A stretch of DNA of 64,000 nt from Alphaproteobacteria bacterium (GTDB lineage: Bacteria; Pseudomonadota; Alphaproteobacteria; Micavibrionales; Micavibrionaceae): assembly GCA_024279035.1 (NCBI GenBank), contig JAJRSA010000013.1:155889-219888 (forward strand), in the 5' to 3' direction. The stretch's first letter is position 1. Every line of letters begins with the position of its first letter. Below are positions 20,671-39,708 of the stretch, piece by piece. The notes under the pieces are model-generated. The model did not search any database. It was not told the DNA's origin and was given only the letters and a program-made list of their open reading frames with translations. The translations under genes and the position numbers were made by a program.

Positions 20671-20756
20671 TGTGAACATAAAAAGAACAAAAAGACAACA
20701 AAAGGGGATAGACAGATAAAATGCGACAGACTCTTCAAGATAAAACAGAGGATCAG

Positions 20757-22244: not shown

Positions 22245-22545
22245 CGCCTTTGGATATCAGGACGGGCAGGAATATGTTTCAAACGAAACACAAAGACCTC
22301 TCTCCGATCCTCTCCTCACAGAGTCAGAAGGAAAAGATCAAGCCTCTATTGAAAAGGCCTTTGCGCGTGTTTTTTCTACGAAAGATGGGCAACTTATCCT
22401 CTCTCATCTTCAATCCATCAGTTTTCAACGCACCCTTGGTCCGGAGGCCTCCGATATGCAATTGCGCTATCTCGAAGGACAACGGGCCATGATTGCAACC
22501 ATTATGCGTTTGATACGATCAGGACGCACCCCCAATCATCATTAA
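22228..22545 (+). CDS. Bbp19-like phage protein
   Basis: 105 aa. The pattern FARVFSTKDGQLILSHLQ followed by EGQRAMIATIMRLIRSG matches the small Bbp19 family, encoded next to the portal gene in podoviruses and prophages. Its role in the virion is not established. It starts within the portal gene and ends 19 bases before the scaffold gene. Confidence 0.7.
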   Translation: MFSIRSAFGYQDGQEYVSNETQRPLSDPLLTESEGKDQASIEKAFARVFSTKDGQLILSHLQSISFQRTLGPEASDMQLRYLEGQRAMIATIMRLIRSGRTPNHH

Positions 22546-22564: not shown

Positions 22565-23256
22565 ATGATACCCACTGAATCCCAAACAGAAAAACCAGCG
22601 TTCCTTCCAGAAAAGTTTTGGAACGAGAAAACACAAGAAGTTCGTCTAGAGTCGTTTGTCAAATCATATACAGATCTTGAAAAAAAGATGTCGCACTCTA
22701 TGGCGCGTCCTGAAACTGAAGAGGATAAAACTAATCTTCTCAAAATGCTTGGATGTCCTGAGTGTGCAGAGGATTATAAAGTGAACGTGGATCACGGCCT
22801 CTTTGAAACGGATCCAGACCTCAATGAGCGTCTTCACAAGCTTGGCTTTACTCAAGACCAAGTGCAAGCTGTCTATGACGCCGCGGCTGAAAAGCTTGTG
22901 CCGATTGTCTTGGAACTCTCTGCTGAGTTTCAAGCAGATCGAGAAGTCGAACGCCTTGTGCAAGAATTTGGAGGCATGGAAAAATGGCAAGAAGTCTCGC
23001 GTCAATTATTAGCTTTCGGCCAAAAAAATCTCCCTGCTGATGTTCTTGATAGCCTGTCTGGATCGTATGAGGGTGTGATGAGCCTTTTCCAAATGATGAA
23101 AGGCAAAGACCCGTCTTTAGTGCTAAGAATGCACGTTCAGGGGCGCTCGACGAACAAGGACTCCAATCCATGATGCGGGATCCAAAATACTGGCGCGAGA
23201 AAGATCCTGCCTTTGTCAATAAAGTCACCGAAGGTTTTGAAGGCTTATACAGCTAA
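22565..23256 (+). pseudogene. Phage capsid assembly/scaffolding protein, frameshifted near its 3' end
   Basis: The intact frame gives 202 aa and stops at 23173. It is acidic and helical with PEKFWNEKTQEVRLESFVKSY at the start, as in capsid scaffolding proteins of T7-like prophages. After about 23110 the frame minus one continues instead, reading FSAKNARSGALDEQGL, MMRDPKYWREKDPAFV and NKVTEGFEGLYS to a stop at 23256. That tail is the conserved C-terminus of this protein class, which docks to capsid. The shift occurs around gacccgtcttt; one extra base there restores the whole protein (about 229 aa). This could be a mutation, a sequencing error in a short C run, or a programmed -1 shift; no classical slippery heptamer is obvious. 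Confidence 0.65.
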
Positions 23257-23497: not shown

Positions 23498-23860
23498 TTA
23501 GCTCACAGAGCCAGCGAATTCGAGGACGTTGTAATTATCAATGACTTTATGGAAGTCTCTGCGTACGTCTCGGGTGAGGGGGGCGAATTGGAGGGCTATC
23601 TCGTCATTTACTTTTCTGACAATATGCGCGACATGTGGAATATTTACAATCTGAGTTTGGACTTTAAATTTGAGGATAATAGGAACTTCTTGTCCAATGT
23701 CACTGGTCTTGAAATTGCCGAAGACACGCAGGCCTCCCATGCTCCAGTCTTTGATAGGATAGTTTTGTCCATTGATCTCCCCCACGCATTGATCACGCCT
23801 CCGTCGAGGCGTTGCGCGTTGGTTATTATATTCTGTATTGTCTGAGTGTGTCTGTTTCAT
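23498..23860 (-). CDS. PilZ-domain protein (putative c-di-GMP receptor)
   Basis: 120 aa from the ATG at 23860; an ATG at 23878 adds six. Single PilZ domain: the arginine motif RATPRRRRDQCV near residue 16 and DWSMGGLRVFG near 40 correspond to RxxxR and (D/N)xSxxG, the two c-di-GMP contacts. It stands alone on the minus strand between the scaffold and capsid genes of the phage cluster, so it is either a host gene, a morphogenesis-independent cargo gene, or left from an insertion. There is no partner domain to indicate what it controls. Confidence 0.75.
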   Translation of the reverse strand: MKQTHSDNTEYNNQRATPRRRRDQCVGEINGQNYPIKDWSMGGLRVFGNFKTSDIGQEVPIILKFKVQTQIVNIPHVAHIVRKVNDEIALQFAPLTRDVRRDFHKVIDNYNVLEFAGSVS

Positions 23861-24023
23861 ATTTCTAAAATTTAGCATTATTATTGTACCCTGTGTACTT
23901 TCTGTTTACGTACATCAAGCCTTGAACGCCTCAATAATCAAGATTGAATTCACATTATAGTGCTCTATATCCCTTTCTTTTACAAGGAGGAAGTAATATT
24001 TATACATTTTTTACACAAAACAC

Positions 24024-24052: not shown

Positions 24053-24115
24053 AACCTTATCAACGCCATAATTGTGTCTAAAATATGTCAGTCCAACGGT
24101 GCTTTATAAAGGATT

Positions 24116-24565: not shown

Positions 24566-25390
24566 ATGGCTACTTCCATTTCTCAGGCCTTTGTGAAGCA
24601 GTTCGAAAGAGAAGTTCACGAAGCCTATCAACGTATGGGGTCTAAATTAAAAGGCACTGTGCGTTCTATCAATAACGTCAAAGGGGCGAGCGCTGTTTTC
24701 CAAAAGGTTGGAAAAGGCACCGCGTCGACGAAATCAACGCATGGTATGGTGCCTGTGATGAATCTGGATCATTCTTCGATTGAATGCTCTTTGCAGGATT
24801 TTTATGCAGGAGACTGGGTGGATCATTTAGATGCGCTTAAAGTCAATATGGATGAGCGTCAGGTGATTGCTAATGCTGGAGCGTATGCTCTGGGGCGTAA
24901 AACTGATGAGATGATCCTCTCGGCGCTTGGTGCTGCCACGCAAAATATCATTCCAGATGGCGCTATAGGCCTGACCAAAGACAAAGTGCTCAATGCCTTT
25001 GAAATACTTGGAGGAGCTGATGTGCCTGATGACGGACAACGCTTTGCAGTTGTTGGTTGGAAACAATGGAGTGATCTTCTTCAAATTGATGAGTTCGGAA
25101 ATGCGGACTATATCGGGTCTGAAGAGCTTCCATGGCAAGGCTCTCAAGCCAAACGTTGGCTGGGGACAACATGGATTCCCCATTCGGCTCTGCCTGATAA
25201 TGGGGCGAGTGTTCGTTCATGTTTCTGGTTTCATAAAACAGCGATTGGTCATGCGAGTGGCTCGGATGTGCAAACCGATATTTCATGGCACGGCGATCGC
25301 GCAGCCCATTTTGTAAATAACATGATGAGCCAAGGCGCTAGCCTAATCGATGAAAACGGGATCGTCACCATCGATTGCGACGAAACTTAA
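24566..25390 (+). CDS. Major capsid protein
   Basis: 274 aa. Position and length fit the capsid protein of short-tailed alphaproteobacterial prophages: helical N-terminus (FVKQFEREVHEAYQRMGSK), a beta-rich region AVFQKVGKGTAST, the VDHLDALKVNMDERQVIANAG segment, and a C-terminus AAHFVNNMMSQGASLIDENG typical of HK97-fold capsids of this group. A scaffold gene lies upstream and a small structural protein follows. Preceded by a gap full of hairpin elements and possibly driven by the promoter at 24024. Confidence 0.82.
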   Translation: MATSISQAFVKQFEREVHEAYQRMGSKLKGTVRSINNVKGASAVFQKVGKGTASTKSTHGMVPVMNLDHSSIECSLQDFYAGDWVDHLDALKVNMDERQVIANAGAYALGRKTDEMILSALGAATQNIIPDGAIGLTKDKVLNAFEILGGADVPDDGQRFAVVGWKQWSDLLQIDEFGNADYIGSEELPWQGSQAKRWLGTTWIPHSALPDNGASVRSCFWFHKTAIGHASGSDVQTDISWHGDRAAHFVNNMMSQGASLIDENGIVTIDCDET

Positions 25391-25448
25391 ACCCCATAAA
25401 CCAAGTAAAGACCCATAAGGCTCAAGACTAACTTTGAGCACAAGGCTT

Positions 25449-25567: not shown

Positions 25568-25804
25568 ATGGCTTTTCAACCCAATGATTTGAGTGTGTTA
25601 GCATATGCAAATAATTTCACCCTCTGGCATTTTACGACAGTGGATAACGCTGTCGATGGCGCAGGGTATTTTGACAGCGCTGTTGATATGCTCAGAACCA
25701 ATGATCTGATCATTACGAATGTCGATACGGACGGCGTTCCCACCACGACTTTTTACATCGTGACGGGCAATGACGGAAGCACTGTAAGCGTCGCCGCATA
25801 CTAA
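25568..25804 (+). CDS. Small phage structural (capsid-adjacent) protein
   Basis: 78 aa. Small proteins of this kind with the segment DSAVDMLRTNDLIITN follow the capsid gene in related prophages and are suspected head-decoration or joining proteins. Compact, beta-rich, no membrane segment. AAGGAGAAAGC precedes the ATG. Flanked on both sides by hairpin elements. Confidence 0.6.
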   Translation: MAFQPNDLSVLAYANNFTLWHFTTVDNAVDGAGYFDSAVDMLRTNDLIITNVDTDGVPTTTFYIVTGNDGSTVSVAAY

Positions 25805-25847
25805 GCGCAAAACGCCTAGGTTTGCATGGCATAGGGAAAAAAGGATT

Positions 25848-25916
25848 GCGACTGCAAGCCCGTGCTTTCGCACGGAGCCTGCGTGGCGTCTGAACGCCCT
25901 GTTTTTTAAAACAGGG
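25848..25916 (+). repeat. Three-hairpin element, copy 8
   Basis: First stem GGATTGC-GACT-GCAAGCC with one mismatch, second stem CGTGC-TTTC-GCACG, core with one change (GGAGCC), third stem CCCTGTTTT/AAAACAGGG. Located between the small structural gene and a strong terminator. Confidence 0.8.
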
Positions 25917-25996
25917 ATAAATCTCCTCAACGCTCATTACAGGATCGCTCATCATGTGTCGCTCTGACACGTCATACGCACCGCCTATCGATACCG

Positions 25997-26075: not shown

Positions 26076-27137
26076 ATGAGTTTATTCGGCAACAGCATTG
26101 GTCAAATGATGATCAATGACGAAGAAGATGTCTTCAAAGCCAAAGAAGTTTTGAGTGAGATCGGTTTATACGAACGAGAACCAGACAATGGTATTTTAGA
26201 CCAAGAGCTCGACAGTGCGTTGAAGATTTTTCAGAAAGATCAGGGCTTAAAAATTGATGGAATTCTTTACCCAAACGGAGAAACAGAAGACGCTCTGACG
26301 CAGAATTTTGCTCAAAAACAGGATCAAAAAGAAACACTTGAAAAACACCGTCCACAGGCCCAGAGGAAATCACCGCTGGAGATGTTACTTGGAAATTTAG
26401 ACGCCTTAGAGGAAGCCCCAGAGCGCATTTTTAGGGCAGTGGAAGAAAAGAAAACACCTCACTCAAAAGAAAAGCCTGAGTCTGTTGACGCTACAGGACG
26501 GATGATCCGAGATAAATTGCCTTCTGTGCCAGAGAGAAAGCCTGTGGCGCCGAGAGGGTCAAAGAATAACGATAAGGGGCATACAATTGACACCTTCTTC
26601 CCGAAACTTTCCTCGGAAGAGGGGGCTTTTACGGAAGGCGTTAATGATAGGAGAGGGAGAACAAATATTGGGATCAATAAAGGAATATTGGATGAATATA
26701 AGGATTGGAAAGAGTCTAAAGGAGAAAAACTTCCCGATACATATACACAAAATGTTAAAAAGGTTTCTCCTGAACTTGCGCGCCGAATCTATGATGAAAT
26801 GTATTATAAACGATATAATATAGACAAAATAAAGGACACAGGGATGGCTTCACATCTTTTGGATATTTCGATTAATCAGGGCTCAAATAAAGCAGGTCGA
26901 TGGTTACAAGAGGAGCTCAATGACAAATCAGGAGCGAATATAAAAGTTGATGGGATCATGGGCTCAGAAACACGAGATATGATTAAAAAGGCCAAAGAAG
27001 ACGGTGTTTTGGATGATGTTCACAATGGAATTGTTAAAAGGAGAAAGCAACATTACCGTAAAATATCTGAAAACGATTCTTCACAGAAAGATTTTCTAAA
27101 AGGGTGGCTTGATCGAGCGGATCGTTTTTCAAAATGA
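26076..27137 (+). CDS. Phage muramidase: PG-binding N-terminus + GH108 + PG-binding-3-like C-terminus
   Basis: 353 aa. Starts with MSLFGNSIGQMMIN, then a peptidoglycan-binding-1-like repeat (about 20-75) and a linker with VDATGRMIRDKLPSVPERK. The catalytic part begins near residue 165: FFPKLSSEEGAFTEGVNDRRG and TNIGI correspond to the EGG-V-ND-GG-TN-GI signature of GH108 N-acetylmuramidases, with the first Glu of EEG as proton donor candidate. C-terminal ISINQGSNKAGRWLQ and VDGIMGSETRD form a PG_binding_3-like domain. The first 150 residues are shared with the protein at 28686. Encoded among virion genes, so a virion-associated wall hydrolase is as likely as a classic endolysin. Confidence 0.85.
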   Translation: MSLFGNSIGQMMINDEEDVFKAKEVLSEIGLYEREPDNGILDQELDSALKIFQKDQGLKIDGILYPNGETEDALTQNFAQKQDQKETLEKHRPQAQRKSPLEMLLGNLDALEEAPERIFRAVEEKKTPHSKEKPESVDATGRMIRDKLPSVPERKPVAPRGSKNNDKGHTIDTFFPKLSSEEGAFTEGVNDRRGRTNIGINKGILDEYKDWKESKGEKLPDTYTQNVKKVSPELARRIYDEMYYKRYNIDKIKDTGMASHLLDISINQGSNKAGRWLQEELNDKSGANIKVDGIMGSETRDMIKKAKEDGVLDDVHNGIVKRRKQHYRKISENDSSQKDFLKGWLDRADRFSK

Positions 27138-27138
27138 C

Positions 27139-27591
27139 CTAATGTGCGGGAATACGATTATTTTCATGCAAGTAAAAGACCATCAGGGTTAATATATTTT
27201 CAAAATGATCTGCTGTATTATTGATGTGAAGCCCGCTATACATTGTACCACATGGTGCACAGGATCCCTGGTGGAGCAGGTTATACACTGCGTATGAGTG
27301 TGTCTGATAAAGGTGGAGTTCACGTAGAAAATCCTCTTTAGATTTAGCATTTAAAAAAAACATGTCTGATATATTTATAATATGTTTTTTAAGGCATTGA
27401 ACATAATCATAACTTGCTTGAGTCATCTGCGATGTGACACCACTTTCCTGATTGCCTTTAGAGAGGAGATGACAATGATTGATAATATCCTCTGCCTGAA
27501 TCTCGGGAGATATATCCATGTCATTTGCTTTTGTACTATATGGATGAAAAGCTAAAAAAAGGGACAGGAGAAAAAAGGAGATCGATTTCAT
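27139..27591 (-). CDS. Secreted small protein, unknown, convergent to the GH108 muramidase
   Basis: 150 aa with a clear signal peptide (ISFFLLSLFLAFHPYSTKA, cleaved near residue 22). The mature part is helical with Cys residues in NHCHLL, VQCLKK and SCAPCGTM, suggesting periplasmic disulfides. No family recognised. Its stop is one base from the muramidase stop. A periplasmic protein paired with a wall hydrolase could be an immunity factor, an inhibitor or a lysogenic-conversion (moron) protein; this is inference from position only. Visibly AT-richer than the structural genes. Confidence 0.65.
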   Translation of the reverse strand: MKSISFFLLSLFLAFHPYSTKANDMDISPEIQAEDIINHCHLLSKGNQESGVTSQMTQASYDYVQCLKKHIINISDMFFLNAKSKEDFLRELHLYQTHSYAVYNLLHQGSCAPCGTMYSGLHINNTADHFENILTLMVFYLHENNRIPAH

Positions 27592-27723
27592 AGAATAGAT
27601 TTTAAGAGAGCTTCGTCACAAAGTCACGCACAGTTTTTGACCACTTTTATTGAACAAGAGGAAAAAGTCATATGTTGATCCTTAAAAGGGGAAGACTGTT
27701 GGTTCCTTTGTCTGGAGCTGGTT

Positions 27724-27783
27724 GTCCCTTTAGGTTATTGTGTGTGCAGTGAGTTGTCGCTCACTGTCCGAACAATTAGGGAC
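27724..27783 (+). ncRNA. Candidate structured RNA or long interrupted hairpin
   Basis: Nested complementary segments: gtccct (27724) with agggac (27783), attgt with acaat, and cagtgag with ctcactg around ttgtcg. It lies in the 460-base gap between the secreted protein and tail tube A, on either strand. Only pairing potential supports it; there is no homology. Confidence 0.3.
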
Positions 27784-27876
27784 GTTTATCAAAGCTTTCA
27801 TAAGATTTCTCCTTTTGTTAGCGATTGACAAGAGGAAACTCTAGCATGGATTTTATAATTTATCTATAGGAATAAA

Positions 27877-28000
27877 ACCACTGCGTTCTCTGCGCCTCTG
27901 TGGTTTAAAAATAATTGAAACGCCCAGAACACAAAGTTACGCAAAGTTTAAACAAAGTTTTTTTAATACCTTCTTTGTGCCTTCGTGTCTTCGTGGTTCA
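27877..28000. repeat. Intergenic repeat of the CTCTGCGCCTCTGTGGTT/ACGCAAAGTTT type
   Basis: The segment from accactgcgttctctgcg to cttcgtggttcaag closely matches 30374-30503 over most of its length, including attgaaacgcccagaacaca. Such exon-like phrases recur in intergenic DNA of many bacteria. It forms several weak hairpins and lies just before the tail tube A gene. A shorter related piece is at about 34553-34583. Confidence 0.75.
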
Positions 28001-28052
28001 AGTCAAAAAAACGCTTGAAATAAATTTAACATTTTAACAGAAAGGCTTTCCA

Positions 28053-28619
28053 ATGGCTCTCAATGATGTGGCTTTATGTAGCCGTGCGCTTATTCGGATT
28101 GGCGCGCAACCGATTACTTCTTTTAATGACGGGACGGCGGAGTCCGAGATTGCGGGGGCACTCTATGAGTCAAGCCGTGATGGGTTGCTCTCCAGCTATG
28201 CGTGGAGCTTTGCGAGTGGGCAAGTGACGCTCAATCAGATTACAACGGCACCGATTGCGGATTACCAAAATGCCTTTGAATTGCCCTCTGATTTCTTGCG
28301 GGCCATTTCAGCAGGATCAGGCGGAAAGGGCCGAGGGCTCAATTTTCGGATTGCGCGCACAGAGTTGCATACCAATGCCACTGACGTCGTGCTTTCTTAT
28401 ATCTTCCGTCCGCAAGAGGCGGATGTCCCGCCCTATTTCGACACCGCCCTCATCGCGCGTCTGACGGCCGAATTCACCATCCCTCTCACCGAGAGCACCA
28501 GCCGCGCCGAAGTCATGTTCCGCCTTGCCGAACAAGAATACGCCAAAGCCCGCCAAATCGACGCGCAACAAGATACGCCAGGGAAGATTGAACGCTTTAC
28601 GCTGATTGATGCACGGTAG
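28053..28619 (+). CDS. Tail tubular protein A-like (gp11 family)
   Basis: 188 aa. The N-terminal MALNDVALCSRALIRIGAQPI, FELPSDFLRAIS and the C-terminal AEQEYAKARQIDAQQ are typical of T7 gp11-type tube proteins, which form the ring below the portal. RBS-like AGAAAGG precedes the ATG. Its last 105 bases are duplicated at the end of the mosaic pseudogene (30984-31087). Confidence 0.85.
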   Translation: MALNDVALCSRALIRIGAQPITSFNDGTAESEIAGALYESSRDGLLSSYAWSFASGQVTLNQITTAPIADYQNAFELPSDFLRAISAGSGGKGRGLNFRIARTELHTNATDVVLSYIFRPQEADVPPYFDTALIARLTAEFTIPLTESTSRAEVMFRLAEQEYAKARQIDAQQDTPGKIERFTLIDAR

Positions 28620-28685
28620 GCAAATCCCTCGCCCTTCAGGGAGAGAGGGGAGTGAGGGTGGTTAAATTTACAAAAGGAAAAAACA

Positions 28686-29855
28686 ATGAGTTTATTCGGT
28701 AACAGCATTGGTCAAATGATGATCAATGTGGAAGATGACGTCTTCAAAGCCAAAGATATCTTTGGAGAGATTGGTCTCTACGAACGAGAGCCAGACAATG
28801 GAATCTTAGACAAAGAACTAGATAGCGCCCTCAAAGTCTTCCAAAAGGAGAAGGGTTTGAAGATTGATGGACTACTCCATCCCGATGGCGACACAGAACA
28901 GGCTGTGATCATGGAATTAGGACGCCAGACGCATGAACAAGCCCCTCAAAGAGGCTGGATTGTAGATCATCAGAAGAAACCCAAAGATCCACTGTTGGTT
29001 TTGCGAGAAACCCTCGAAAAGAGCCGTCCTAAGACTCAGAATCAATCTCCGCTAGAGCTATTGCTAGGGAATTTAGAGGCACTAGAAAAAACGCCAGATG
29101 TAATCAAGACTCTGCAGGAGAAACAAGTGCCCAAACCAGAAGATAAACCCGCACCCGTTGATGCCACAGGGCGGATGATGAGGGATGAAATCCCGCCTGT
29201 GCCTGACAGGAAGCCTGAAATAGAGAAGAAACCGAGACAACAGGACATGCCAGATAATTTTGATGAAATTGCGGACTTTGTTAAAAAGCAAGAAGGGGCT
29301 GTTGATCATTTGTATAAAGATACAGGGGGTAATATGACGGTTGGTGTCGGGCACTTGATTACAAATGTTGAGGAAGCCAAAAAACTGCCCTTTTATATGC
29401 ATGATGAAAATGATAAGCCCGTTCGACCTGCGACGCCGAAAGAAATTGAAACACTCTATGGGCAGATCAAAAAGATTCCACATGGGCAGGGTGTGGGAAG
29501 TTCAGTATATAACCCTCAAACAATCCCTAAGATGAAGGATATAAAACTCCGAGAACAGGACAGAGATCAACTCTTCAAAAAAGACCTAGAACAACGCGTC
29601 AAAGAACTCCGTCAAAACTGGCCTGAATTTGATGACGTGCCTCCAAAGATGAAAATAGCTCTGATGGATATCCATTTTAATATAGGGGCAGGGAATTTTA
29701 AACCAGCACAATGGAAAGAGTTTAAAAAGGCCCTTGATGCCAAAGACTGGAAAAAGGCGGCCAAGGAAAGTCACCGAGATACCCCTCATGAAGGTAGAAA
29801 CGATAAAACACGGGATAAAATTCTCGAAATTATTGAGGATGAACAGGAACAATAG
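28686..29855 (+). CDS. Phage lysozyme: shared PG-binding N-terminus + GH24 lysozyme domain
   Basis: 389 aa. Residues 1-180 repeat the N-terminal module of the GH108 protein (MSLFGNSIGQMMIN, REPDNGILDKELDSALKVFQK, VDATGRMMRDEIPPVPDRK), but with an extra 35-residue insertion near 85. From about 195 the catalytic domain is a GH24 (T4/lambda-R-type) muramidase: KKQEGAVDHLYKDTGGNMTVGVGH gives the Glu-Asp-Thr-type triad, and IALMDIHFNIG is the conserved helix. The two proteins are thus domain-swapped paralogues in one phage cluster. It overlaps the convergent lipoprotein gene by 26 bases. Confidence 0.87.
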   Translation: MSLFGNSIGQMMINVEDDVFKAKDIFGEIGLYEREPDNGILDKELDSALKVFQKEKGLKIDGLLHPDGDTEQAVIMELGRQTHEQAPQRGWIVDHQKKPKDPLLVLRETLEKSRPKTQNQSPLELLLGNLEALEKTPDVIKTLQEKQVPKPEDKPAPVDATGRMMRDEIPPVPDRKPEIEKKPRQQDMPDNFDEIADFVKKQEGAVDHLYKDTGGNMTVGVGHLITNVEEAKKLPFYMHDENDKPVRPATPKEIETLYGQIKKIPHGQGVGSSVYNPQTIPKMKDIKLREQDRDQLFKKDLEQRVKELRQNWPEFDDVPPKMKIALMDIHFNIGAGNFKPAQWKEFKKALDAKDWKKAAKESHRDTPHEGRNDKTRDKILEIIEDEQEQ

Positions 29856-30339
29856 ACGAATGACTCCATATAGGAATTATAGCGCACATATCTTTTATAA
29901 CATCATCTTTATCTCCCAATAAATCTTTGTATGATAGAGGATTATCCCATATGTCTTCTGTGACGTTAAGACACGAATAGGACCAATGATATGTTGGGGA
30001 TGACCGTATTTGTTTTTGTTTAACAGATAAAACCAACAGACTCGGAGGACTCCATTCTTTTTCAACAGGTACCAAGAATTTATTCTTGTGAACCATCACA
30101 ACATGTTTTTTATCATACACATGGAGTATTTTGTACTGGACTTTTCTTGTCAGTTCCCCTGTCTTTCGGTTCGCAAAAAGCATGTTGCCATCTGGATTGA
30201 TGGTGAGGCTGAGATGCCCTTTCCAATACCCCCATGCGCCCAAAAATGTCTCAGGCATCTGGAGAGATCTGTCCGCAGAAGGCGACACGCACCCAGACAA
30301 AGATATAATGCATAACACCATGATCAAAAAAGATTTCAT
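29830..30339 (-). CDS. Putative lipoprotein convergent to the GH24 lysozyme
   Basis: 169 aa. A textbook lipoprotein leader: MKSFLIMVLCIISLSGC with LSGC lipobox, so Cys17 would be acylated. The mature part has FLGAWGYWKGHLSLTINPDGNMLFANRKTG, a beta-barrel-like opening as in small lipocalin-like lipoproteins. No family is certain. Its 3' end overlaps the lysozyme gene. As with 27139-27591, an envelope protein is paired with a wall hydrolase on the opposite strand. Confidence 0.7.
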   Translation of the reverse strand: MKSFLIMVLCIISLSGCVSPSADRSLQMPETFLGAWGYWKGHLSLTINPDGNMLFANRKTGELTRKVQYKILHVYDKKHVVMVHKNKFLVPVEKEWSPPSLLVLSVKQKQIRSSPTYHWSYSCLNVTEDIWDNPLSYKDLLGDKDDVIKDMCAIIPIWSHSSIVPVHPQ

Positions 30340-30373
30340 GCTCGGAGTCTAGCATGAGGGACAGACAATGAAA

Positions 30374-30503
30374 ACCTCTGCGTCCTCTGCGCCTCTACGG
30401 TTTAAAAATAATTGAAACGCCCAGAACACAAAGTTACGCAAAGTTTAGACAAAGTTTTTTTTATGGTCTCTGTGATCCTTTGAGTTCTTAGTGTCTTCGT
30501 GGT
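30374..30503. repeat. Intergenic repeat, second copy of the 27877 type
   Basis: Shares tttaaaaataattgaaacg, cccagaacacaaagttacg and the flanking CTCTGCG/CTTCGTGGT phrases with 27877-28000. It is followed by a single arm of the tcctgaaacaagttcagga-type palindrome at 30512-30536. Confidence 0.75.
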
Positions 30504-30559
30504 AAAAAAAAGATCCTGAAACGAGTTCAGGATGACGGTTTTATTCTACAAAAAGAAAG

Positions 30560-31087
30560 AAAATCAAAGATATCAAAACAAACTTCACCGCGGGCGAAGT
30601 GTCTCGGCAGTTGTTGGGGCGTGGGGATTTGCGGGCGTATCAGAATGGAGCCTTGGCTCTGCGTAATATGTTTATTTTTCCAACGGGCGGAGTCACGCGC
30701 CGTGCGGGGTTGCATTATATTGACAGCGTGCCTGCAAATGGTTGTTTGATTAGTTTTGAGTTTAATACGCAACAGACCTATTTGATTGTGTTTACGGATG
30801 GACAGATTGACATTTATTATGAAGGTGTAAAGCAAACAACGATTCTATGCTGTCTCGGCATATTGTTGAGAACTCTGTCGATCAGGATTTTGACCAAAAA
30901 CGGTGCTTGCTGTTTATTGTGAGAGAAGACGGGAAGTTTGCCACGCTTATAGTGTATAGAGTCGAGCAGATGGCCGCATGGATGCCCCGTCTTGCCGAAC
31001 AAGAATACGCCAAAGCGCGCCAAATCGATGCCCAACAAGACCCCCCAGGGAAAATTGAACGTTTACGCTGATTGATGCGCGGTAGGG
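30560..31087 (+). pseudogene. Mosaic pseudogene: pieces of tail nozzle B joined to the end of tail tube A
   Basis: Bases 30560-30845 match the start of the gene at 31965 (from KIKDIKTNFTAGEV to YYEGVKQTT) but lack its ATG and ribosome site. The match then jumps to an internal stretch of that gene (30850-30982, LSRHIVEN to VYRVEQMAAW; 33107-33240 in the intact gene), and then to the final 105 bases of the tail tube A gene (30984-31087, RLAEQEYAKARQIDAQQ), which also carry a one-base deletion. The pieces cannot encode a working protein. Confidence 0.85.
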
Positions 31088-31202
31088 TTCGTTATACAGA
31101 GAAAAATTAATCTTTATAAAAAAACATATTGACAAATTAATCTTTAATACAGTACCTTTTTTTGTAATTAAATTATAAAAAAAGAAAGGGTACGGGTGTT
31201 TT

Positions 31203-31514
31203 ATGTCGGATGAATGTAAGGAGGCTCGTAGTGTAAGAAGAGGATCTAACGTCGTAGGGGCGATTTCAGTAGTTTTATTGTGCTCTCATTTTTTTCTGTC
31301 CTCCGTGCACGATGCCTCTTCCGTCGCTCCTTTGCAAGAAGGAGGTGTCCTTCATGAATCCAGTGAAGGAAATAGGCACAAAAATGAAGGGCTAGGGGCA
31401 TATAAATTCTTGGTGGGCGCATTTTTAGCAGCAGGACTCTCTGTAGCGGCAAAGCAGTTAGCAAAAAAAATAGATAATATGCCAGATGGGTCATCAAACA
31501 ATTTTATGGCCTAA
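31203..31514 (+). CDS. Small protein with two hydrophobic segments, unknown
   Basis: 103 aa. Hydrophobic stretches at about 16-34 (VVGAISVVLLCSHFFLSSV) and 66-84 (YKFLVGAFLAAGLSVAAKQ) with a polar loop between. AAGGGTACGGG precedes the ATG. The next gene has the same layout, suggesting a tandem pair of related or co-operating membrane proteins. They could be holin-like, but the canonical holin of this cluster is at 44559. AT-rich compared with neighbours. Confidence 0.5.
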   Translation: MSDECKEARSVRRGSNVVGAISVVLLCSHFFLSSVHDASSVAPLQEGGVLHESSEGNRHKNEGLGAYKFLVGAFLAAGLSVAAKQLAKKIDNMPDGSSNNFMA

Positions 31515-31555
31515 TGTTGTGGCTATAATTCAAATGTAAAAAAGGGCGTGTAAAC

Positions 31556-31870
31556 ATGGATATTACAACACAAGAAGAAGTTAAATATACAAAAGCATTA
31601 TCCTCCATTATGGGAACAGTTATGGGGACTATCTTGACTGTAAGTGTGGGGTTGTCAGGGTTTCATTATTTTGCTCATGGAGCAGAAGTTTCTGATATAG
31701 AAGAATCTACACAAAGTTTTGAGCAGTTGTCTTCTTTTTGGGGTATTGATTCAGATCTTGCTTTGAGTGGCATTTTCTTTGTTGCTGGTTTAGGGGCTTT
31801 TGGCGCTAAAAGAGCCATGGATAATAACTTGGAGGTGGCTCAGAAAAGTTATAATCTCGACATTTCATAG
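31556..31870 (+). CDS. Small protein with two hydrophobic segments, unknown (second of the pair)
   Basis: 104 aa. Hydrophobic segments about 15-37 (SSIMGTVMGTILTVSVGLSG) and 68-86 (LALSGIFFVAGLGAFGAK), separated by an acidic loop, the same plan as the preceding gene. Followed by a terminator. No family recognised. Confidence 0.5.
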   Translation: MDITTQEEVKYTKALSSIMGTVMGTILTVSVGLSGFHYFAHGAEVSDIEESTQSFEQLSSFWGIDSDLALSGIFFVAGLGAFGAKRAMDNNLEVAQKSYNLDIS

Positions 31871-31915
31871 AACAAAATAATTCTGAACCTGTTTTAGGTT
31901 CTCTTTTCCCCCTCT

Positions 31916-31938
31916 CCCTCACAGGTGAGGGTTTTTTT
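31916..31938 (+). terminator. Rho-independent terminator
   Basis: CCCTCAC and GTGAGGG pair around a two-base loop and are followed by seven T residues. A second hairpin (gaacctgttttaggttc) lies just upstream at 31884-31900. Confidence 0.8.
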
Positions 31939-31964
31939 ATGCCAAAATTTAGAAAGAAAAACAA

Positions 31965-33863
31965 ATGGTTAAAATCAAAGATATCAAAACAAACTTCACC
32001 GCAGGGGAAGTGTCTCGGCAGTTGTTGGGGCGTGGGGATTTGCGGGCGTATCAGAATGGGGCGTTAGCTCTGCGTAATATGTTTATTTTTCCAACGGGCG
32101 GAGTTACGCGCCGTGCAGGGTTGCATTATATTGATACTGTGCCTGCAAATGGTCGTTTGATTAGTTTTGAGTTTAATACGCAACAGACCTATTTGATTGT
32201 GTTTACGGATGGACAGATTGACATTTATTATGAAGGTGTAAAGCAAACAACGATTCCATCTCCTTGGAATAGTACACAATTATCAGAGTTGGCATGGACG
32301 CAGAGTGCAGATACACTCTTGCTTGTGCATCCGAGCGTGTCTCCCAAAACATTGACCCGTGATAGTTTTGGAGGCTGGTCTTTGAGTGATTGGATATTCT
32401 TTGCGGATAATAACATACAATACTATCCGTATTATAAATTTGCAGACAGTACCGTTACGCTCACGCCCAGCGGCACAACAGGAACAGTCACACTCACGGC
32501 CTCGGTGGATGTCTTTGATCCGTTACACGCAGGGACACGTTTGCGCGTTGGTGGGAAAGAGGTTGAAATTCTCAGCTATAATTCGCCCACTGTTGTGAGT
32601 GTAAATATTATTGAGGATTTAACGGACACCAGTGCCACGATTGATTGGGTCGAGCAAGCGTTTTCGCCTGTGCATGGCTATCCAGCTTCGGTGGCGTTCC
32701 ATCAAGATCGCTTGGTGATTGGAGGAAGCCGTGATTTGCCCAACCGTTTGTGGTTTTCAAAATCAGGAGATTTGTTTAATTTTGATCTCGGGACAGGATT
32801 AGATGATGAATCCATTGAGTTTTCTATTCTCTCGGATCAGGTCAACAGTATTCGCGCCGTGTTCTCAGGGCGCCATTTGCAAGTCTTTACCAGTGGGGCG
32901 GAATGGATGGTCACAGGAGACCCACTCACGCCTCAAACTGTGCAACTTAGACGTCAGACCCGTATTGGATCTGTGATTGATCGTTTTATTCCACCTGTGG
33001 ATGTGGATGGGGCGACGCTCTTTATTGCGCGTAATAAGCAAGAAATCCGAGAGTTTCTCTATACGGATTTAGAACAGGCCTATCAGGCAAGTGATTTAGC
33101 GTTGTTGTCTCGGCATATTGTTGAGAACCCTGTCGATCAGGATTTTGACCAAAAAAGACGCTTGCTGTTTATTGTGAGAGAAGACGGGAAGTTTGCCACG
33201 CTTACAGTGTACAGAGCCGAGCAGGTGGCCGCGTGGACGCTCCATGAAACGGATGGGGCTGTCAAATCAGTCTCTGTGGTGGGGGAAGAGGTCTATCTTT
33301 TGATTGATCGAGGTGGACAATACACAATTGAATTGTTTGACGAAGATCTTTATTTGGATTCTGCCCTCAAGGGCGAGGTAGGTACCCCCACGGACACGTG
33401 GTCAGGGCTGGATCATTTAGAAGGAAAATTAGTGCAAATTGTCGCGGACGGTATTGTACAAACAGATCAAATTGTCACAAGCGGAACGGTCACCTTAGCG
33501 CAAAGTGCCTCAGACGTACAAATTGGATTGCCCTTTACGCACACAATTGAACCTTTGCCCCCCAGTGTTATTGATGGGGCAGGCGCAGGGCGGAGTGTGC
33601 GTTTGGTCGAAGTCCGCTTCCGTGTGGAAAAGACAGCTGCTTTGCGCGCTGATGTTGGGCGAGGTTTGCAAGACATTGCTCTCAAAGAATTCGGGCAAAC
33701 CCCTATATTAAACACGCCTCCGCCTCAAATCAGTGGAGATATTAGAGTACGCGCCTTTGGTTGGTCTCATGATCTCACCAAGCCACTGTGGAAAATAGAA
33801 CAAGATCTCCCTCTGCCCTTTACATTATTGTCTGTGACAATGGAGCTGAGTGTGAATGATTAA
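31965..33863 (+). CDS. Tail tubular protein B-like (nozzle) protein
   Basis: 632 aa. The N-terminal FTAGEVSRQLLGRGDLRAY and ALALRNMFIFPTGGVTRRAG, then FVFSTEQTYLI-like FEFNTQQTYLIVFTDGQ, and PASVAFHQDRLVIGGS in the middle are hallmarks of T7 gp12-like/large nozzle proteins of short-tailed prophages. It would form the tail tip below tail tube A. The start is preceded by AGAAAGAAAAACAA, a weak site. Two parts of it are duplicated in the pseudogene at 30560-31087. Confidence 0.85.
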   Translation: MVKIKDIKTNFTAGEVSRQLLGRGDLRAYQNGALALRNMFIFPTGGVTRRAGLHYIDTVPANGRLISFEFNTQQTYLIVFTDGQIDIYYEGVKQTTIPSPWNSTQLSELAWTQSADTLLLVHPSVSPKTLTRDSFGGWSLSDWIFFADNNIQYYPYYKFADSTVTLTPSGTTGTVTLTASVDVFDPLHAGTRLRVGGKEVEILSYNSPTVVSVNIIEDLTDTSATIDWVEQAFSPVHGYPASVAFHQDRLVIGGSRDLPNRLWFSKSGDLFNFDLGTGLDDESIEFSILSDQVNSIRAVFSGRHLQVFTSGAEWMVTGDPLTPQTVQLRRQTRIGSVIDRFIPPVDVDGATLFIARNKQEIREFLYTDLEQAYQASDLALLSRHIVENPVDQDFDQKRRLLFIVREDGKFATLTVYRAEQVAAWTLHETDGAVKSVSVVGEEVYLLIDRGGQYTIELFDEDLYLDSALKGEVGTPTDTWSGLDHLEGKLVQIVADGIVQTDQIVTSGTVTLAQSASDVQIGLPFTHTIEPLPPSVIDGAGAGRSVRLVEVRFRVEKTAALRADVGRGLQDIALKEFGQTPILNTPPPQISGDIRVRAFGWSHDLTKPLWKIEQDLPLPFTLLSVTMELSVND

Positions 33864-34026
33864 CGCACAAAAGATCTCTCTTCCTTCAGGGTAAGGGGTG
33901 CATAAAGCTTTTTTACCACAGATAAGCTTTATCTTTATGAAGAAGCCCCCGTGTTCATCTGTGGCGAAAGAAAAAGACCCTGAAACAAGTTCAGGATGAC
34001 ACACACTTTAACATTAAAGGAAAAAA

Positions 34027-34152
34027 ATGAGTATACTCTCAAATTCCGTAGGGAACAGTCTATTCTCTCGTCCAGAGGATGTAAATCGCCTGCGTGGTGC
34101 TTTGGATGCTTTAGGATATAAAGATGATAACCCTGATTGTGCCAATAAGTAA
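34027..34152 (+). pseudogene. Remnant of a third lysin N-terminal module
   Basis: 41 codons from an ATG preceded by AAAGGAAAAAA. MSILSNSVGNSLFSRPEDVN aligns with MSLFGNSIGQMMINDEEDVF at the start of the two muramidases, followed by RLRGALDALGYKDDNPD matching their peptidoglycan-binding opening (KEVLSEIGLYEREPDNG). It then stops at 34150. The catalytic part is gone; a minus-strand gene ends within it. The small frame may still be translated. Confidence 0.65.
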
Positions 34153-34539
34153 GTTCTTACCTATGGAAATTGTATAAAAATGCTCAATATCTTCACTGGA
34201 ATACCCTAACAAATGTCCAAAGATGCGATCATGGGCATCTTCATACTTGAAAACTTTACTGTGGATTTGTTCGCGAAGCCATATGTAGCTCTGCGCACGC
34301 CATTCTTCATTGGGGATTGTGAAACAGACATAGAGCATGTACGTGTTCGCATCGTAAGGCACAGTTTTTTCAAACCGTAAAAGTGTACTCTTTTGAATGT
34401 GCGGGGCGAACGCTTGCTCTGGAATGATCTCTTCAGATATAAAGCCTGATTGAGGGATAATATCCCCAAAAGCCGCGAGCATTTTCTTGCCGTTGAGCAT
34501 GAGGGTAAGTTCTTGTCCTTGGTGCGGAGCGATCATCAT
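34111..34539 (-). CDS. Hypothetical protein, cytoplasmic, possibly trimmed at its C-terminus
   Basis: 142 aa. MMIAPHQGQELTLMLNGKKM, IPEQAFAPHIQKSTLL and AHDRIFGHLLGYSSEDIEHF look like a conserved globular protein, but I do not recognise its function. No signal peptide. The last 20 residues (ISIGKNLLIGTIRVIIFIS) fall in the lysin remnant and may be unnatural, suggesting that recombination joined the two. It occupies the same convergent position after a lysin module as the genes at 27139 and 29830. Confidence 0.5.
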   Translation of the reverse strand: MMIAPHQGQELTLMLNGKKMLAAFGDIIPQSGFISEEIIPEQAFAPHIQKSTLLRFEKTVPYDANTYMLYVCFTIPNEEWRAQSYIWLREQIHSKVFKYEDAHDRIFGHLLGYSSEDIEHFYTISIGKNLLIGTIRVIIFIS

Positions 34540-34764: not shown

Positions 34765-34840
34765 AGGGGTATAGCTCAGTTGGTAGAGCGACGGTCTCCA
34801 AAACCGTAGGTCTGGAGTTCGAGTCTCCATGCCCCTGCCA
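34765..34840 (+). tRNA. tRNA-Trp (anticodon CCA)
   Basis: A 76-base cloverleaf with encoded CCA end: acceptor AGGGGTA pairs with TGCCCCT (one G-U), D arm GCTCAGTTGGTAGAGC, anticodon stem ACGGT/ACCGT around loop CTCCAAA giving anticodon CCA, and T arm CTGGAGTTCGAGTCTCCAT. Sits alone between the tail nozzle and internal protein genes of the phage cluster, not in the tuf-secE-nusG setting where alphaproteobacterial tRNA-Trp usually lies. Confidence 0.95.
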
Positions 34841-35003: not shown

Positions 35004-35483
35004 ATGGGTGCTTTAACAAGTGGTCTGACGACTGTTTTACCTATTTTAAAAACAGTAACGGGAATTGCCAATACTCTAGGAGGGTTTACCAGCCAACGGC
35101 GCAAACAAGATAGCGCTTTGGATCAATTGCAAGCCACGCAAGCCGAGCGCTTGCGTCAAACGCAAGAGGATGCCAGCTTGCGCAAAGATCAAATTCAAGC
35201 GACTGCCGAGAACGCCGAAGCGGCTCGTAAAAAAGCCCTTAAGCGGGCTGTTGCGCGTCAACGGACTCGGTTTGGATCTCAAGGGATCAGTACAAGCGGA
35301 GGATCTGGGCAGGCAATTTTACTCGGGCTCTTTGAGGAGAGCGATGAAGATCGCGCCCAACGAGACCGTTTGGATGGGGTGAGAACACATATCCTCGATC
35401 AAAATGTAAACCAGCTCCAACGCTTGAATGTTTTGCAGGCGAGTCAATTGGCAGAGAGACAGAGATTTTCTAGGCTGTTTTGA
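35004..35483 (+). CDS. Phage internal virion-like protein (gp14-like position)
   Basis: 159 aa. A Gly-rich hydrophobic N-terminus (TSGLTTVLPILKTVTGIANTLGG) followed by a long Gln/Arg/Ala-rich coiled coil (LQATQAERLRQTQED) and GSQGISTSGGSGQAIL. Proteins of this make-up lie between nozzle and tail-fibre genes in related prophages and correspond by position to the small T7 ejection protein gp14. The large ejection proteins gp15/gp16 have no counterpart here. AAAGGAGAAAAAT precedes the ATG. Confidence 0.6.
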   Translation: MGALTSGLTTVLPILKTVTGIANTLGGFTSQRRKQDSALDQLQATQAERLRQTQEDASLRKDQIQATAENAEAARKKALKRAVARQRTRFGSQGISTSGGSGQAILLGLFEESDEDRAQRDRLDGVRTHILDQNVNQLQRLNVLQASQLAERQRFSRLF

Positions 35484-35627: not shown

Positions 35628-35707
35628 ACCACAGATGAACACAGATACACACGGATAAGAGTTTTCTTCAAAATAAACATCCGTGTGTATCTGTGTTTAT
35701 CTGTGGT
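35628..35707. repeat. 29-bp inverted repeat of the ACCACAGATGAACACAGAT type
   Basis: Arms 35628-35656 and 35679-35707 are inverted copies with one mismatch around a 22-base loop. The phrase is a well-known intergenic repeat in unrelated bacteria. A degenerate relative lies at 33914-33964. The rest of the gap 35484-35627 shows no gene. Confidence 0.8.
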
Positions 35708-35731
35708 TTTTTAAAAAAGGCCCTCACCCAA

Positions 35732-35760
35732 CCCTCTCCCTGAAAGGAGAGGGTTTTTAT
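35732..35760 (+). terminator. Terminator-like hairpin before the tail-fibre gene
   Basis: CCCTCTCC and GGAGAGGG pair around a six-base loop, followed by a T-rich tract. It probably ends the internal-protein transcript. Confidence 0.6.
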
Positions 35761-35787
35761 TTATCTCTAACATTTAAAGGAGCCCCC

Positions 35788-37812
35788 ATGCTTGAGCATA
35801 TCAAAGTGCCTGATATCGTGCCGATTGTGCGCTATTTGGCGAATGGAACAGAGACTCTGTTCACCTATCCCTTTCCGATTTTTGCGAGTGAGGATTTGCA
35901 GATCTTTTTTGATGGAGCGTTACAAAATAGTGGGTTTACCGTTTTGAATGCAGGACAAACATCTGGCGGAGAAGTGCAATTTACGACAGCTCCTGTGAGT
36001 GGTGTGATTGTGACGTTAGAGCGTCGTTTGCCGTTGGAGCGGATTACGGATTTTCTGGAGGGTGGTGATTTCTCGGCGCAAGCCATCAATAACGAACTCG
36101 ATTATCTCACAGGCTCGATCCAGCAAATCTCTAGCGATCAAGCAGGGATGTTGCGCTTTGATAAGAGTGAAACGTTGGGGAAATCCACCTTGCCCACACG
36201 AGCACAGCGCGCCAATCAAGCGCTGGGGTTTGATGGGAATGGAGATCCTGTCCCCATATCTTTGAGCGGCGCCATGGCGTCGCCTGATTTCACAGCGACA
36301 GGCGTGGGGGCTGTGGCGCGTACGACGCATGATAAATTTTCTGATATGGTGTCGATTAAAGACTTTGGCGCGGTGGGGGATGGGTTGACCGATGATACGC
36401 TTGCCATTCAACAAGCGCTGTCTAGCCATCAAAGTATCTTTGTCCCCAATGGCACATATATTGTCTCTGCGCCGATTGTATTAAGTGAGCGTCAAACCAT
36501 GATTGGGGCAGGGCAACGCGCGGTGATTCAAGCCAGTGGAGCAGGCTTTGCGGTCATTGAGATGGTCTCGGACTATATCACGCTCTCAACCTTGCGTATT
36601 GAGCAGGGGGATATCGGGCTGAAGCTCTATGGACGAGATCGTCCGTGCGTTCAAAATAGCATTTCAGATGTGACAATTTGGCAAGCGGGGACGGGGATAC
36701 AACTCGATGGCTATATTGATACGAATTTGCCCTGTTACTGGAATAATTTTGATCGCGTGTTGGTGGCGCAACCATCACTGCACGGGATTCATTTGATGAG
36801 GTCTGGCGCAGGAGACACCCCCAATGCGAATAAGTTTCATGCGTGTCGGGTCTATTCTTTGGGGGCTGATATTTCGGGCTCGGGGATTTATGTGGAGCAA
36901 GGACGTTTTAATAACTCTTTTCTGGATTGTGAAGTGAATGTCAAAGGGACGGCTCAAGCCTGTTTTCATGTCGGAGCGTTCTCGGATAAGACATTGTTTG
37001 TAAATCCTTATGCCGAGTCAAACAATCAAGTGCCTAATATTAAGCTTGAGGCAGGTTCGATTGAAACGTCAATTTTTAATCTGCTCTCGGTGAGTGATGG
37101 CGCGGCAATTTGGGATCTCTCGGGCGGAGAATATACGGCCTATAATGCAGGGTTTCCGCATAAAAATAGATTGCAACGGACAAGTGTCACGGATCTCACC
37201 ACAACGCTCAATCGCTTTGACACAGAGTTTTTGGATAGCAGTGGTGTGGTGGATTTAGACTTGTCTCATACTGTGCATTTGGTCTCAAGCTTTGGAGGGG
37301 ATTTGGAACTGCGCTTGCCTCTGGCGAGTGATGCCGTGGGATGTGAAATTACGATCAAGAAAATTGATACGTCCAAAAATCTTGTGACGATTTCTGAGCA
37401 GGGGGGAGGGAATGGCCCTGATCGCGCGCCGTTCTTTTTGGGCGGACAATATGATTTTGTGACCATGGTCTCGAATGGCGCAGAATGGTTTGTCATTAGT
37501 TCTAATCGTATGGCAGGCAATACACGCTTTTATGACGGGACAGGCTTTTACGATATTGATATGGCGGTGGACACCTATTTCTTATCAAGTTTTGGTGGCG
37601 TATTAGAAGCCCGTCTCCCTCCTGCCAATGCGGCCGAGGCCATAGGGCGGACGATCACGATTAAAAAAACGGATGTCTCCAGTAACGTGATTACAGTGAG
37701 TGAGCAAGGCGGCAGTGGCCCTGATGGGTTTGCGCAACCGTTGAACAGTCAGTACAACACGATTAGTGTGGTGTCAGATGGCGGGCAGTGGTTCATTGTG
37801 TCTAAGTTTTAG
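35788..37812 (+). CDS. Tail fibre/tailspike with T7-type N-terminus and pectate-lyase-like beta-helix
   Basis: 674 aa from the ATG at 35788 (AAAGGAG six bases upstream). Residues 1-120 resemble the T7 tail-fibre attachment domain (YLANGTETLFTYPFPIFASE, LPLERITDFLEGGDFSAQAI). A short linker leads to IKDFGAVGDGLTDDTLAIQQAL (about 190-210), the start of a Pectate_lyase_3 right-handed beta-helix as in capsule-degrading tailspikes. The C-terminus carries two tandem copies of an about 100-residue beta module (LSSFGG-x-LE-x-RLP, EITIKK and TVSEQGG). It binds and perhaps cleaves surface polysaccharide; the catalytic residues cannot be placed. Confidence 0.85.
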   Translation: MLEHIKVPDIVPIVRYLANGTETLFTYPFPIFASEDLQIFFDGALQNSGFTVLNAGQTSGGEVQFTTAPVSGVIVTLERRLPLERITDFLEGGDFSAQAINNELDYLTGSIQQISSDQAGMLRFDKSETLGKSTLPTRAQRANQALGFDGNGDPVPISLSGAMASPDFTATGVGAVARTTHDKFSDMVSIKDFGAVGDGLTDDTLAIQQALSSHQSIFVPNGTYIVSAPIVLSERQTMIGAGQRAVIQASGAGFAVIEMVSDYITLSTLRIEQGDIGLKLYGRDRPCVQNSISDVTIWQAGTGIQLDGYIDTNLPCYWNNFDRVLVAQPSLHGIHLMRSGAGDTPNANKFHACRVYSLGADISGSGIYVEQGRFNNSFLDCEVNVKGTAQACFHVGAFSDKTLFVNPYAESNNQVPNIKLEAGSIETSIFNLLSVSDGAAIWDLSGGEYTAYNAGFPHKNRLQRTSVTDLTTTLNRFDTEFLDSSGVVDLDLSHTVHLVSSFGGDLELRLPLASDAVGCEITIKKIDTSKNLVTISEQGGGNGPDRAPFFLGGQYDFVTMVSNGAEWFVISSNRMAGNTRFYDGTGFYDIDMAVDTYFLSSFGGVLEARLPPANAAEAIGRTITIKKTDVSSNVITVSEQGGSGPDGFAQPLNSQYNTISVVSDGGQWFIVSKF

Positions 37813-39299: not shown

Positions 39300-39378
39300 G
39301 GCGTTGTATTCTTAATTAATGAGCATAAAAAACTTTGCGTCCCATAAAAACCTCAACCCCATAAGGAGTATGATAGCT

Positions 39379-39708
39379 ATGTCTGATGAAATTATAAAAG
39401 TAAGTGGTGAATGGATTGATATCTTCTTGCCAGAGGCCTTGGGGAAAGCGCTCTATTCCTATCAGGAATTTATGGAGCAAGAGATTCCCACAGACGTGAA
39501 AGGCTTCTCCGCCCACCATGCCGCCGCTAAAGTGGCGATTGCACATGTGGAGCTCCTTGTGAAGCTCGGGAAATCCGTAGACCGCTCAAAAGACCCCCAA
39601 GACAGTCAGGCCACAGCCCTCATGCTCTCCAAAGCCGAAACAGAACTGCTAGGCTATAAATCTCGCCAAGATGTATGGGAACAGGAGGGGGAGGAAGAAT
39701 TATCTTGA
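39379..39708 (+). CDS. Small phage protein in the terminase-small-subunit position
   Basis: 109 aa from the ATG at 39379 with AAGGAG ten bases upstream (an ATG at 39370 is too close to that site). Helical and charged: AAAKVAIAHVELLVKLGKSV and DSQATALMLSKAETELLGYK. In T7 the small terminase gene lies between tail fibre and large terminase, and this is the best candidate by order. I recognise no domain, so this is inference. Confidence 0.5.
   Translation: MSDEIIKVSGEWIDIFLPEALGKALYSYQEFMEQEIPTDVKGFSAHHAAAKVAIAHVELLVKLGKSVDRSKDPQDSQATALMLSKAETELLGYKSRQDVWEQEGEEELS

Follow-up and report, generated by a model that had tools for sequence, protein, structure and literature searches.

Why should two wall-degrading enzymes with different catalytic domains begin with the same N-terminal module, and why should each be followed at once by a different gene on the opposite strand? 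The question is raised by a stretch of 64,000 nucleotides (the window) from an alphaproteobacterium of the family Micavibrionaceae (positions 155,889 to 219,888 of contig JAJRSA010000013.1, assembly GCA_024279035.1), where two such cassettes and the remnant of a third are lodged among the genes of a podovirus-like particle cluster. An initial annotation had compared this layout with polymorphic effector–immunity pairs. Comparison among 104 genomes of the family makes it probable that the cassettes are such pairs, members of a polymorphic family with a constant N-terminal module. The comparative signature is that of effector–immunity pairs, and from it we infer toxicity of the effectors and inhibition by the partners; loading into and delivery by the particle are proposed more tentatively.

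Effector 1 (26076..27137, plus strand) consists of a leader and PG_binding_1-like module (residues 1-78), a linker, and a GH108 muramidase domain with PG_binding_3 (Pfam PG_binding_1 E 5e-12, Glyco_hydro_108 E 5e-13). Effector 2 (28686..29855, plus strand) carries the same module and a linker ahead of a GH24 lysozyme domain (Phage_lysozyme/GH24, E 1.5e-10); its PG_binding_1 match falls slightly below the cut-off of 23 (22.2 bits, E 1.7e-4). Residues 1-78 of the two proteins are 74% identical, which bears out the common module proposed for them. The E...D...T pattern of GH24 and the GH108-motif Glu, both with catalytic roles, are present in the window proteins; E/D/T is retained in 9/9 aligned GH24-class sequences and Glu in 5/5 aligned GH108-class sequences. 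The third open reading frame (ORF; 34027..34152, plus strand) has 41 codons, and its residues 1-36 match the module profile at the start of the module only. Its relatives are proteins of 108-121 aa with the module and a zinc ribbon, neighbored by a partner of the same family as the gene at 34111; here the zinc-ribbon end is missing. The third cassette thus does carry the module start expected of it, and is the truncated form of a zinc-ribbon type rather than of a lysin.

The adjoining minus-strand genes are where the initial annotation had placed them. Partner 1 (27139..27591) begins 1 base beyond the effector 1 stop, partner 2 (29830..30339) overlaps effector 2 by 26 bases, and partner 3 (34111..34539) overlaps the remnant by 42 bases. 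By crude hydropathy rules and sequence, which also underlie the signal and transmembrane (TM) assignments in the other cassettes, partner 1 is of secreted type (a signal-like N-terminus and four Cys), partner 2 of lipoprotein type (a lipobox-like LSGC), and partner 3, which has no signal, of cytosolic type. Partner 1 is a putative immunity protein to GH108 and SLT-type muramidases and partner 2 to the GH24 class; partner 3 appears to be an orphan immunity-like gene, with a core of ~125 aa and C-terminal residues that extend past the end of most relatives.

Beside these genes stands a repeat of 18 bases, CAAAGTTACGCAAAGTTT (with up to three mismatches), found at 27619, 27932, 30429 and 34566, or four times in 64 kb against 0.13 expected. 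Every one of the three partner genes has a copy no more than 90 bases from its start, and an extra copy lies 341 bases away from partner 1; two of the copies share 94 surrounding bases at 94% identity. The repeat could be a cassette edge, part of a promoter or a dispersed repeat.

How widely is the module shared, and with what is it joined? A profile built from 29 segments describes a short leader, a VGNN..N...DV motif and a divergent PG_binding_1-like stretch ending in PGGETE. At a cut-off of E 1e-8 it was found at 96 places in 46/104 family genomes, with several copies in some; the weak end of these matches comprises conserved PG-binding relatives of ~300-360 aa, only a few of which were fetched. 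Of 74 distinct module genes read, seven lacked a C-terminus of 25 aa, and the remaining 67 were clustered on their last 130 residues (clustering on the whole C-terminus had chained 38 genes through a common proline-rich linker). The result was 11 clusters with at least two members, plus seven singletons, with no links between clusters at E 1e-3.

Muramidases make up only three of the 11 clusters: T3 (GH24 class), T7 (GH108) and T1 (SLT-like, with Pfam matches weak in some members). The GH24 class is defined by a profile made in this analysis; Pfam Phage_lysozyme exceeds its cut-off for the window gene, both L142 genes, L143 and L135:15001 (L and G numbers are our working labels), falls below it for L149, L152 and L069, and is not listed for L127:9833. 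Among the other clusters, T0 is a coiled coil with a glycine-rich stretch, and its sequence and multi-TM neighbors suggest that it may be pore-like; T2 is Cys-rich (AGAxCHxSA..RY..CL), T4 is the zinc ribbon (CxxCGxPHGGSxGxxCxxC), T6 bears IPGTNIPDEG, and T10 is SAA-like, with PF00277 in the single member scanned. For those scanned, Pfam families gave no recognized wall hydrolase in most clusters; such a domain is present in both window enzymes and in the muramidase clusters only. The description of the variable part as an exchangeable wall-degrading toxin therefore stands for the exchange of C-termini and is too narrow as to what is exchanged. As a further observation, the SAA-like ends on the module occur in L157, L161 and L173, and a comparable end is present in a different family (L189); downstream of the SAA-like gene, L161 and L173 have a small membrane-type gene bearing a C.D.GG.W.Y motif.

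Does the neighboring gene follow the variable end? ORFs of at least 70 aa lying -90 to +450 bases from the stop were clustered blind to strand; 11 of the 60 clustered genes had no recurrent neighbor, leaving 49 in the pairing test. Class-specific pairs account for 45/49, with the C-terminal cluster (T) and its partner family (D) combined as T1-D0 (8), T0-D2 (7), T2-D4 (6), T4-D3 (6), T3-D5 (5), T6-D6 (5), T7-D1 (4), T5-D11 (2) and T8-D13 (2). Mutual information between C-terminus and partner was 2.18, compared with an average of 0.90 and a peak of 1.17 among the shuffles (0/10,000 as high), the shuffle taking the loci as they stand, kinship included. A search for the module with other C-termini, tabulating the gene that follows, had been proposed at the outset, and it does return many other C-termini with other partners. 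The partners of the GH24, GH108 and zinc-ribbon genes, together with D11 and D13, are convergent. Since D0, D2, D4 and D6 are codirectional, what is general is the identity of the partner and not its convergence.

Searches in the reverse direction, with the partner 1 and partner 2 alignments against the 104 genomes and blind to the module, ask the same question from the other side. Partner 1 was found at 12 places, or 11 loci once one split locus was merged, in 9/104 genomes, and 8/11 loci face, in convergent orientation, the gene of an intact muramidase or module protein. The other three are an open 159-aa partner 1 with no effector within 1.5 kb (G130), an intact partner 1 beside a module remnant (G022:C58), and one locus in G029 broken on both sides. 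Partner 2 has 17 places, representing 16 loci in 11/104 genomes; nine of the 16 lie beside an intact GH24-class gene, all nine convergent. Elsewhere an intact partner 2 adjoins GH24 pieces (G022:C9) or has no enzyme (G113, apparently a record of L035), two loci are broken on both sides (G042, G137), and three more involve a contig end, a 55-aa fragment and a match at E 4e-4. The L138 (G030) partner is missing the first third seen in other members of the family. That of L152, reached only through an iterated profile and not refound by the partner 2 search, is excluded from the evidence.

Partner 2 is also convergent with module-less GH24-class genes in L068, L069 and L313, and therefore follows the catalytic domain; L165, whose enzyme starts at a contig edge, is not counted as module-less. 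In six further genomes of the family, and in L192 from a different family of the class, partner 3 is convergent with module-plus-zinc-ribbon genes; in the window it remains where effector 3 is truncated. The partners are thus conserved beside their enzymes in relatives, as the effector–immunity comparison had anticipated, being convergent with them in other slots of the cluster and outside it. An intact partner beside a lost or broken effector was seen in five cases (34111 in the window, G022:C58, G130, G022:C9 and G113), a small count given without formal statistics. The neighbors appear immunity-like because they are class-specific, because they are kept when the effector decays, and because they are located where the effector would act.

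A working model can be assembled from these observations. The module would serve as the sorting part, tying the effector to a domesticated podovirus-like particle and perhaps docking on peptidoglycan. The variable C-terminus would be the active part, which for the GH108 and GH24 muramidases would mean attack on a recipient's or competitor's wall. The adjacent gene would provide immunity, stopping the effector in kin and producer, and its product would be placed at the site of effector action: a secreted protein or lipoprotein against the muramidases, a multi-TM protein against the glycine-rich/coiled-coil class, and a cytosolic protein in other cases.

The partner 1 model, from eight sequences, is a four-helix bundle after the signal region (pLDDT 82), for which the fold search gave no Foldseek match at E <0.001. 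Its best VIA Z of 8.0 (rmsd 3.8 over 109 residues) may, for helical bundles, reflect no more than a widespread arrangement. The fold matches listed for partner 1 included no lysozyme-inhibitor fold, which excludes nothing. Neither Pfam nor PHROG gave a confident match to any of the three window partners (best E 0.02), and profile searches of PDB sequences returned nothing useful for them. A likeness of partner 1 to LprI-type inhibitors was considered and dropped; Pfam did not list LprI.

What ties the module to the particle? Of its 96 places in the family, 33 (32 of 91 merged genes) lie no more than 14 kb from a capsid or tail gene of their contig, where ~1.2 would be expected (binomial p 2e-36 on the assumption of independence); the cluster amounts to ~1% of a genome. 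The in-cluster count is a lower bound, as it uses 82 capsid places, with partial ones dropped, and nine tail places. In a wider sample of the class, the module occurs in 23/385 genomes (E 1e-12), and a capsid relative accompanies it in 16/20 module genomes versus 41/352 others (p 4e-11). This class test combines a capsid search (57/372 at E 1e-50, a threshold chosen after the list was seen) with a check of the unmatched module genomes; G307, G321, G338 and G435, which have the module and no capsid, were counted as members of the capsid sample though its list omits them, and three genomes were set aside, two with the capsid (G507, G513) and one without it (G512). Two other families have a module gene within the same kind of cluster (L194, L200).

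For delivery, the particle is the best candidate, a view we hold tentatively, and module carriers without the cluster argue caution. Type VI secretion (T6SS) was set aside as a route, its marker VipB/TssC being found in 0/104 family genomes with a control set positive for E. coli only. Type IV secretion (T4SS) of the X-Tfe-like kind was likewise set aside, since the VirB4 family is present in 19/104 family genomes and not in the window's own. About two thirds of the module matches lie outside the cluster, and within the family the module occurs in 4/10 genomes without capsid and tail B, a tail gene of the cluster, versus 42/94 with one or both (p 1). From these two facts it would follow either that particle delivery is not obligatory or that the cluster-less module genomes have lost the cluster. 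The same facts favor effector–immunity pairs that travel by another route, such as bacteriocin-like release on lysis or an unrecognized secretion system, with the cluster no more than a favored neighborhood. This seems somewhat unlikely, with odds that overlap those of the effector–immunity reading as a whole; the strong enrichment of the module within the cluster, its association with the capsid across the class sample, the module genes in the same cluster of two other families, and the secretion markers just described all speak against it.

Must the cassettes be weapons at all? Wall-binding endolysins that free the particles, with partners acting as lysis regulators or self-protectants rather than as defense against delivered effectors, would also account for two intact window effectors that are both muramidases, for a PG_binding_1 module of the sort that endolysins commonly bear, and for the GTA-type holin encoded nearby (44559). 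Such lysis cassettes are improbable given that most C-terminal clusters have no recognized wall hydrolase and have other partner families, and that some genomes hold several copies. Moreover, 47/88 capsid-bearing family genomes have no module match, so the module enzymes cannot be the particle's general lysins. Relatedly, at least four module genes sit in the gaps of one cluster on a single contig of L135 (G029:C5), a cassette array that also counts against lysis cassettes. It is more doubtful still, to the point of being very improbable, that the partners are superinfection-exclusion or other antiphage genes (morons) that lie beside lysins by chance. Secreted and lipoprotein partners could guard the envelope; against this stand the tracking of the C-terminal cluster by the partner family, a best PADLOC match among the three window partners of E 0.009, and a position relative to the effector that is kept inside and outside the cluster.

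The interpretation as effector–immunity pairs has its own difficulties, beginning with the kinship left in the pairing shuffle and the post hoc threshold of the class test noted above. Pairing is broken in 4/49 genes, namely T5-D1 and three T10 genes with D7, D9 and D12. The partner 1 family adjoins both GH108 and SLT-type genes and once an unclassified C-terminus, the SLT-type genes have in addition a codirectional small membrane gene (D0), and the GH24-class gene L135:15001 lacks partner 2 and has another small signal- or TM-type gene downstream. The fold predicted for partner 1 is a common helical bundle with generic PDB matches, and the partner 2 model, mainly strands, is poor (pLDDT 62). 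No known lysozyme-inhibitor or immunity family was found for the partners scanned in Pfam, PADLOC and PDB sequences. In G324, one of the 16 genomes with both module and capsid, the module match sits in an apparent L,D-transpeptidase. For delivery by the particle specifically, the two thirds of matches outside the cluster and the 4/10 genomes without it weigh in the same direction.

The cluster in which the cassettes lie can be described in some detail, with the counts that follow resting on 80 capsid loci, many of them cut by contig ends. On the plus strand it opens with the portal or head-tail connector (20721..22244; PF12236 E 2e-133, phrog_332), a small conserved gene (22228..22545; 37/80 loci, many ended by contig edges) and a further conserved gene (22565..23173; phrog_3742; 58/80). 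A minus-strand gene (23498..23878; 54/80) directly precedes the major capsid gene (24566..25390; phrog_3437 E 6e-73), after which come a small conserved gene (25568..25804; 77/80), the tail-tubular-A-like tail A (28053..28619; phrog_394 E 2e-41; 78/80) and tail B (31965..33863; phrog_376 E 9e-150), a tail protein by PHROG and tail-tubular-B-like by position. The plus strand continues with a conserved gene (35004..35483; 65/80), a tail fiber or spike-type protein (35683..37812; phrog_1640, PF12708), another conserved gene (39319..39708; 27/80), the terminase large subunit (40601..42073; phrog_38 E 2e-88; 57/80) and the GTA-type three-TM holin (44559..45143; PF11351 E 2e-10). The order from the portal through tail A, and on through tail B, 35004, spike, 39319 and terminase, is kept in 72/80 loci where the genes are present.

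Module genes occupy many gaps in this order: between 22228 and 22565 (L045, L124, L127), after 22565 (L041, L128), after 25568 (the window, L157), after tail A (the window, L123, L128, L142), after tail B (L142, L143, L159), after 35004 (L122, L119) and after the terminase (L129, L138). In the slot before tail B of the window lie two small membrane-type proteins (31203-31514 and 31556-31870; 103 and 104 aa), without a match in Pfam or PHROG, which are perhaps another cassette. Upstream of the intact tail B, a scar at 30560-31086 joins duplicated pieces of tail genes: the tail B start (96% to 31971-32256), an inner tail B piece (93%) and the tail A end (90%). The cluster further contains a tRNA-Trp gene (34765-34840) between the third cassette and 35004, an M50 peptidase with a PDZ domain (37870-39171) between the spike gene and 39319, and an ~80-base repeat family flanking the capsid gene (24108-24267, 25442-25522, 25820-25925).

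An ordinary or recent prophage would be a poor fit to a cluster so widely conserved and usually single-copy: capsid is present in 88/104 and tail B in 87/104 family genomes, mostly once, with two clusters in G133. In the class sample, a capsid relative at E 1e-50 or better is also found mostly once per genome, some of the genomes being only ~0.9 Mb. Capsid relatives 70-87% identical (best 80 of 304 contigs) come from Micavibrio, alphaproteobacterial metagenome-assembled genomes (MAGs), Azospirillum and a few others. A glutaredoxin gene was found in 16/80 loci, oriented opposite to the portal and 4.9-6.7 kb away from it, and capsid and glutaredoxin divergence are correlated (rho 0.54, over 120 non-independent pairs); in the window the glutaredoxin gene lies 264 bases upstream of the portal on the same strand. 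Among the matches listed (10 of 120 records), the closest annotated phage is Pelagibacter phage EXVC031P, at 49.5% capsid identity, and an unannotated 5-kb record from human feces reaches 63.6%. IMG/VR holds 281 related contigs, of which the best 80, of 4-37 kb, were kept. We read this as an apparently domesticated, gene transfer agent (GTA)-like podovirus cluster.

A 155-aa module query against viral contigs returned four stretches, none confirmed, and effector 1 as a query against phage records matched 49 records, all at <60% identity and none covering 80% of the query.

What known systems resemble this one? The traits of polymorphic toxins found here are a constant N-terminal module with unrelated C-termini and partners specific to the C-terminus, and the closest known kinds are the MuF toxins and the MuF capsid-like system. 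In the portions considered here, Jamet et al. 2017 (PMC5576092) describe MuF toxins of temperate phages, mainly in Firmicutes, with a phage-linked constant N-terminus, a variable toxin C-terminus and a putative immunity ORF downstream, and propose delivery by the particle without showing it. The likeness extends to all three elements, the small putative immunity gene adjoining here as well. On that account, the differences are that the constant part here is a leader and PG_binding_1-like module instead of a MuF domain, that the genes are found either within a conserved podovirus-like cluster, apparently domesticated, or at other chromosomal sites, and that some genomes hold several cassettes, with convergent partners for the muramidases, in Alphaproteobacteria. 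A MuF phage-capsid-like secretory system was predicted by Zhang et al. 2012 (PMC3482391); in the parts of that work considered, its marker domain differs, and PGB1 appears only as an adhesion part of toxins. The MuF domain (PF04233/PF06152) was not among the Pfam families of the window effectors and relatives scanned, and no description of the module, the partners or the cluster was found in the open-licence PMC literature searched.

Two further systems can be compared. RcGTA and other GTAs likewise consist of particle genes of phage origin that the chromosome has retained, together with a holin of the GTA type. The cluster described here shares with them a structural gene set widely kept and mostly in single copy; it differs from them in its podovirus-like portal and tail genes and its effector-like cassettes. 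Peptidoglycan-hydrolase effectors of the T6SS pair a wall hydrolase with an adjoining periplasmic or lipoprotein partner, from which the present pairs are set apart by the lack of VipB/TssC across the family genomes.

If the cassettes are effector–immunity pairs, they would constitute a family of polymorphic effectors marked by a module of its own, together with several uncharacterized families of effectors and immunity proteins, in a host family that has no detectable T6SS and is related to predators, and would be tied to a widespread podovirus-like cluster that itself deserves study. On a broader and more speculative view, to which we give somewhat less than even weight, the podovirus-derived particle of many Alphaproteobacteria would be an arming platform. 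The gaps between its structural genes would collect interchangeable cassettes with a common loading module, the particle would deliver wall hydrolases, putative pore formers and others to neighbor or prey cells, and kin would carry the antidotes. Should particles prove to carry the module proteins, a GTA-like particle would double as a weapon, and the reason such clusters are kept would become a testable question.

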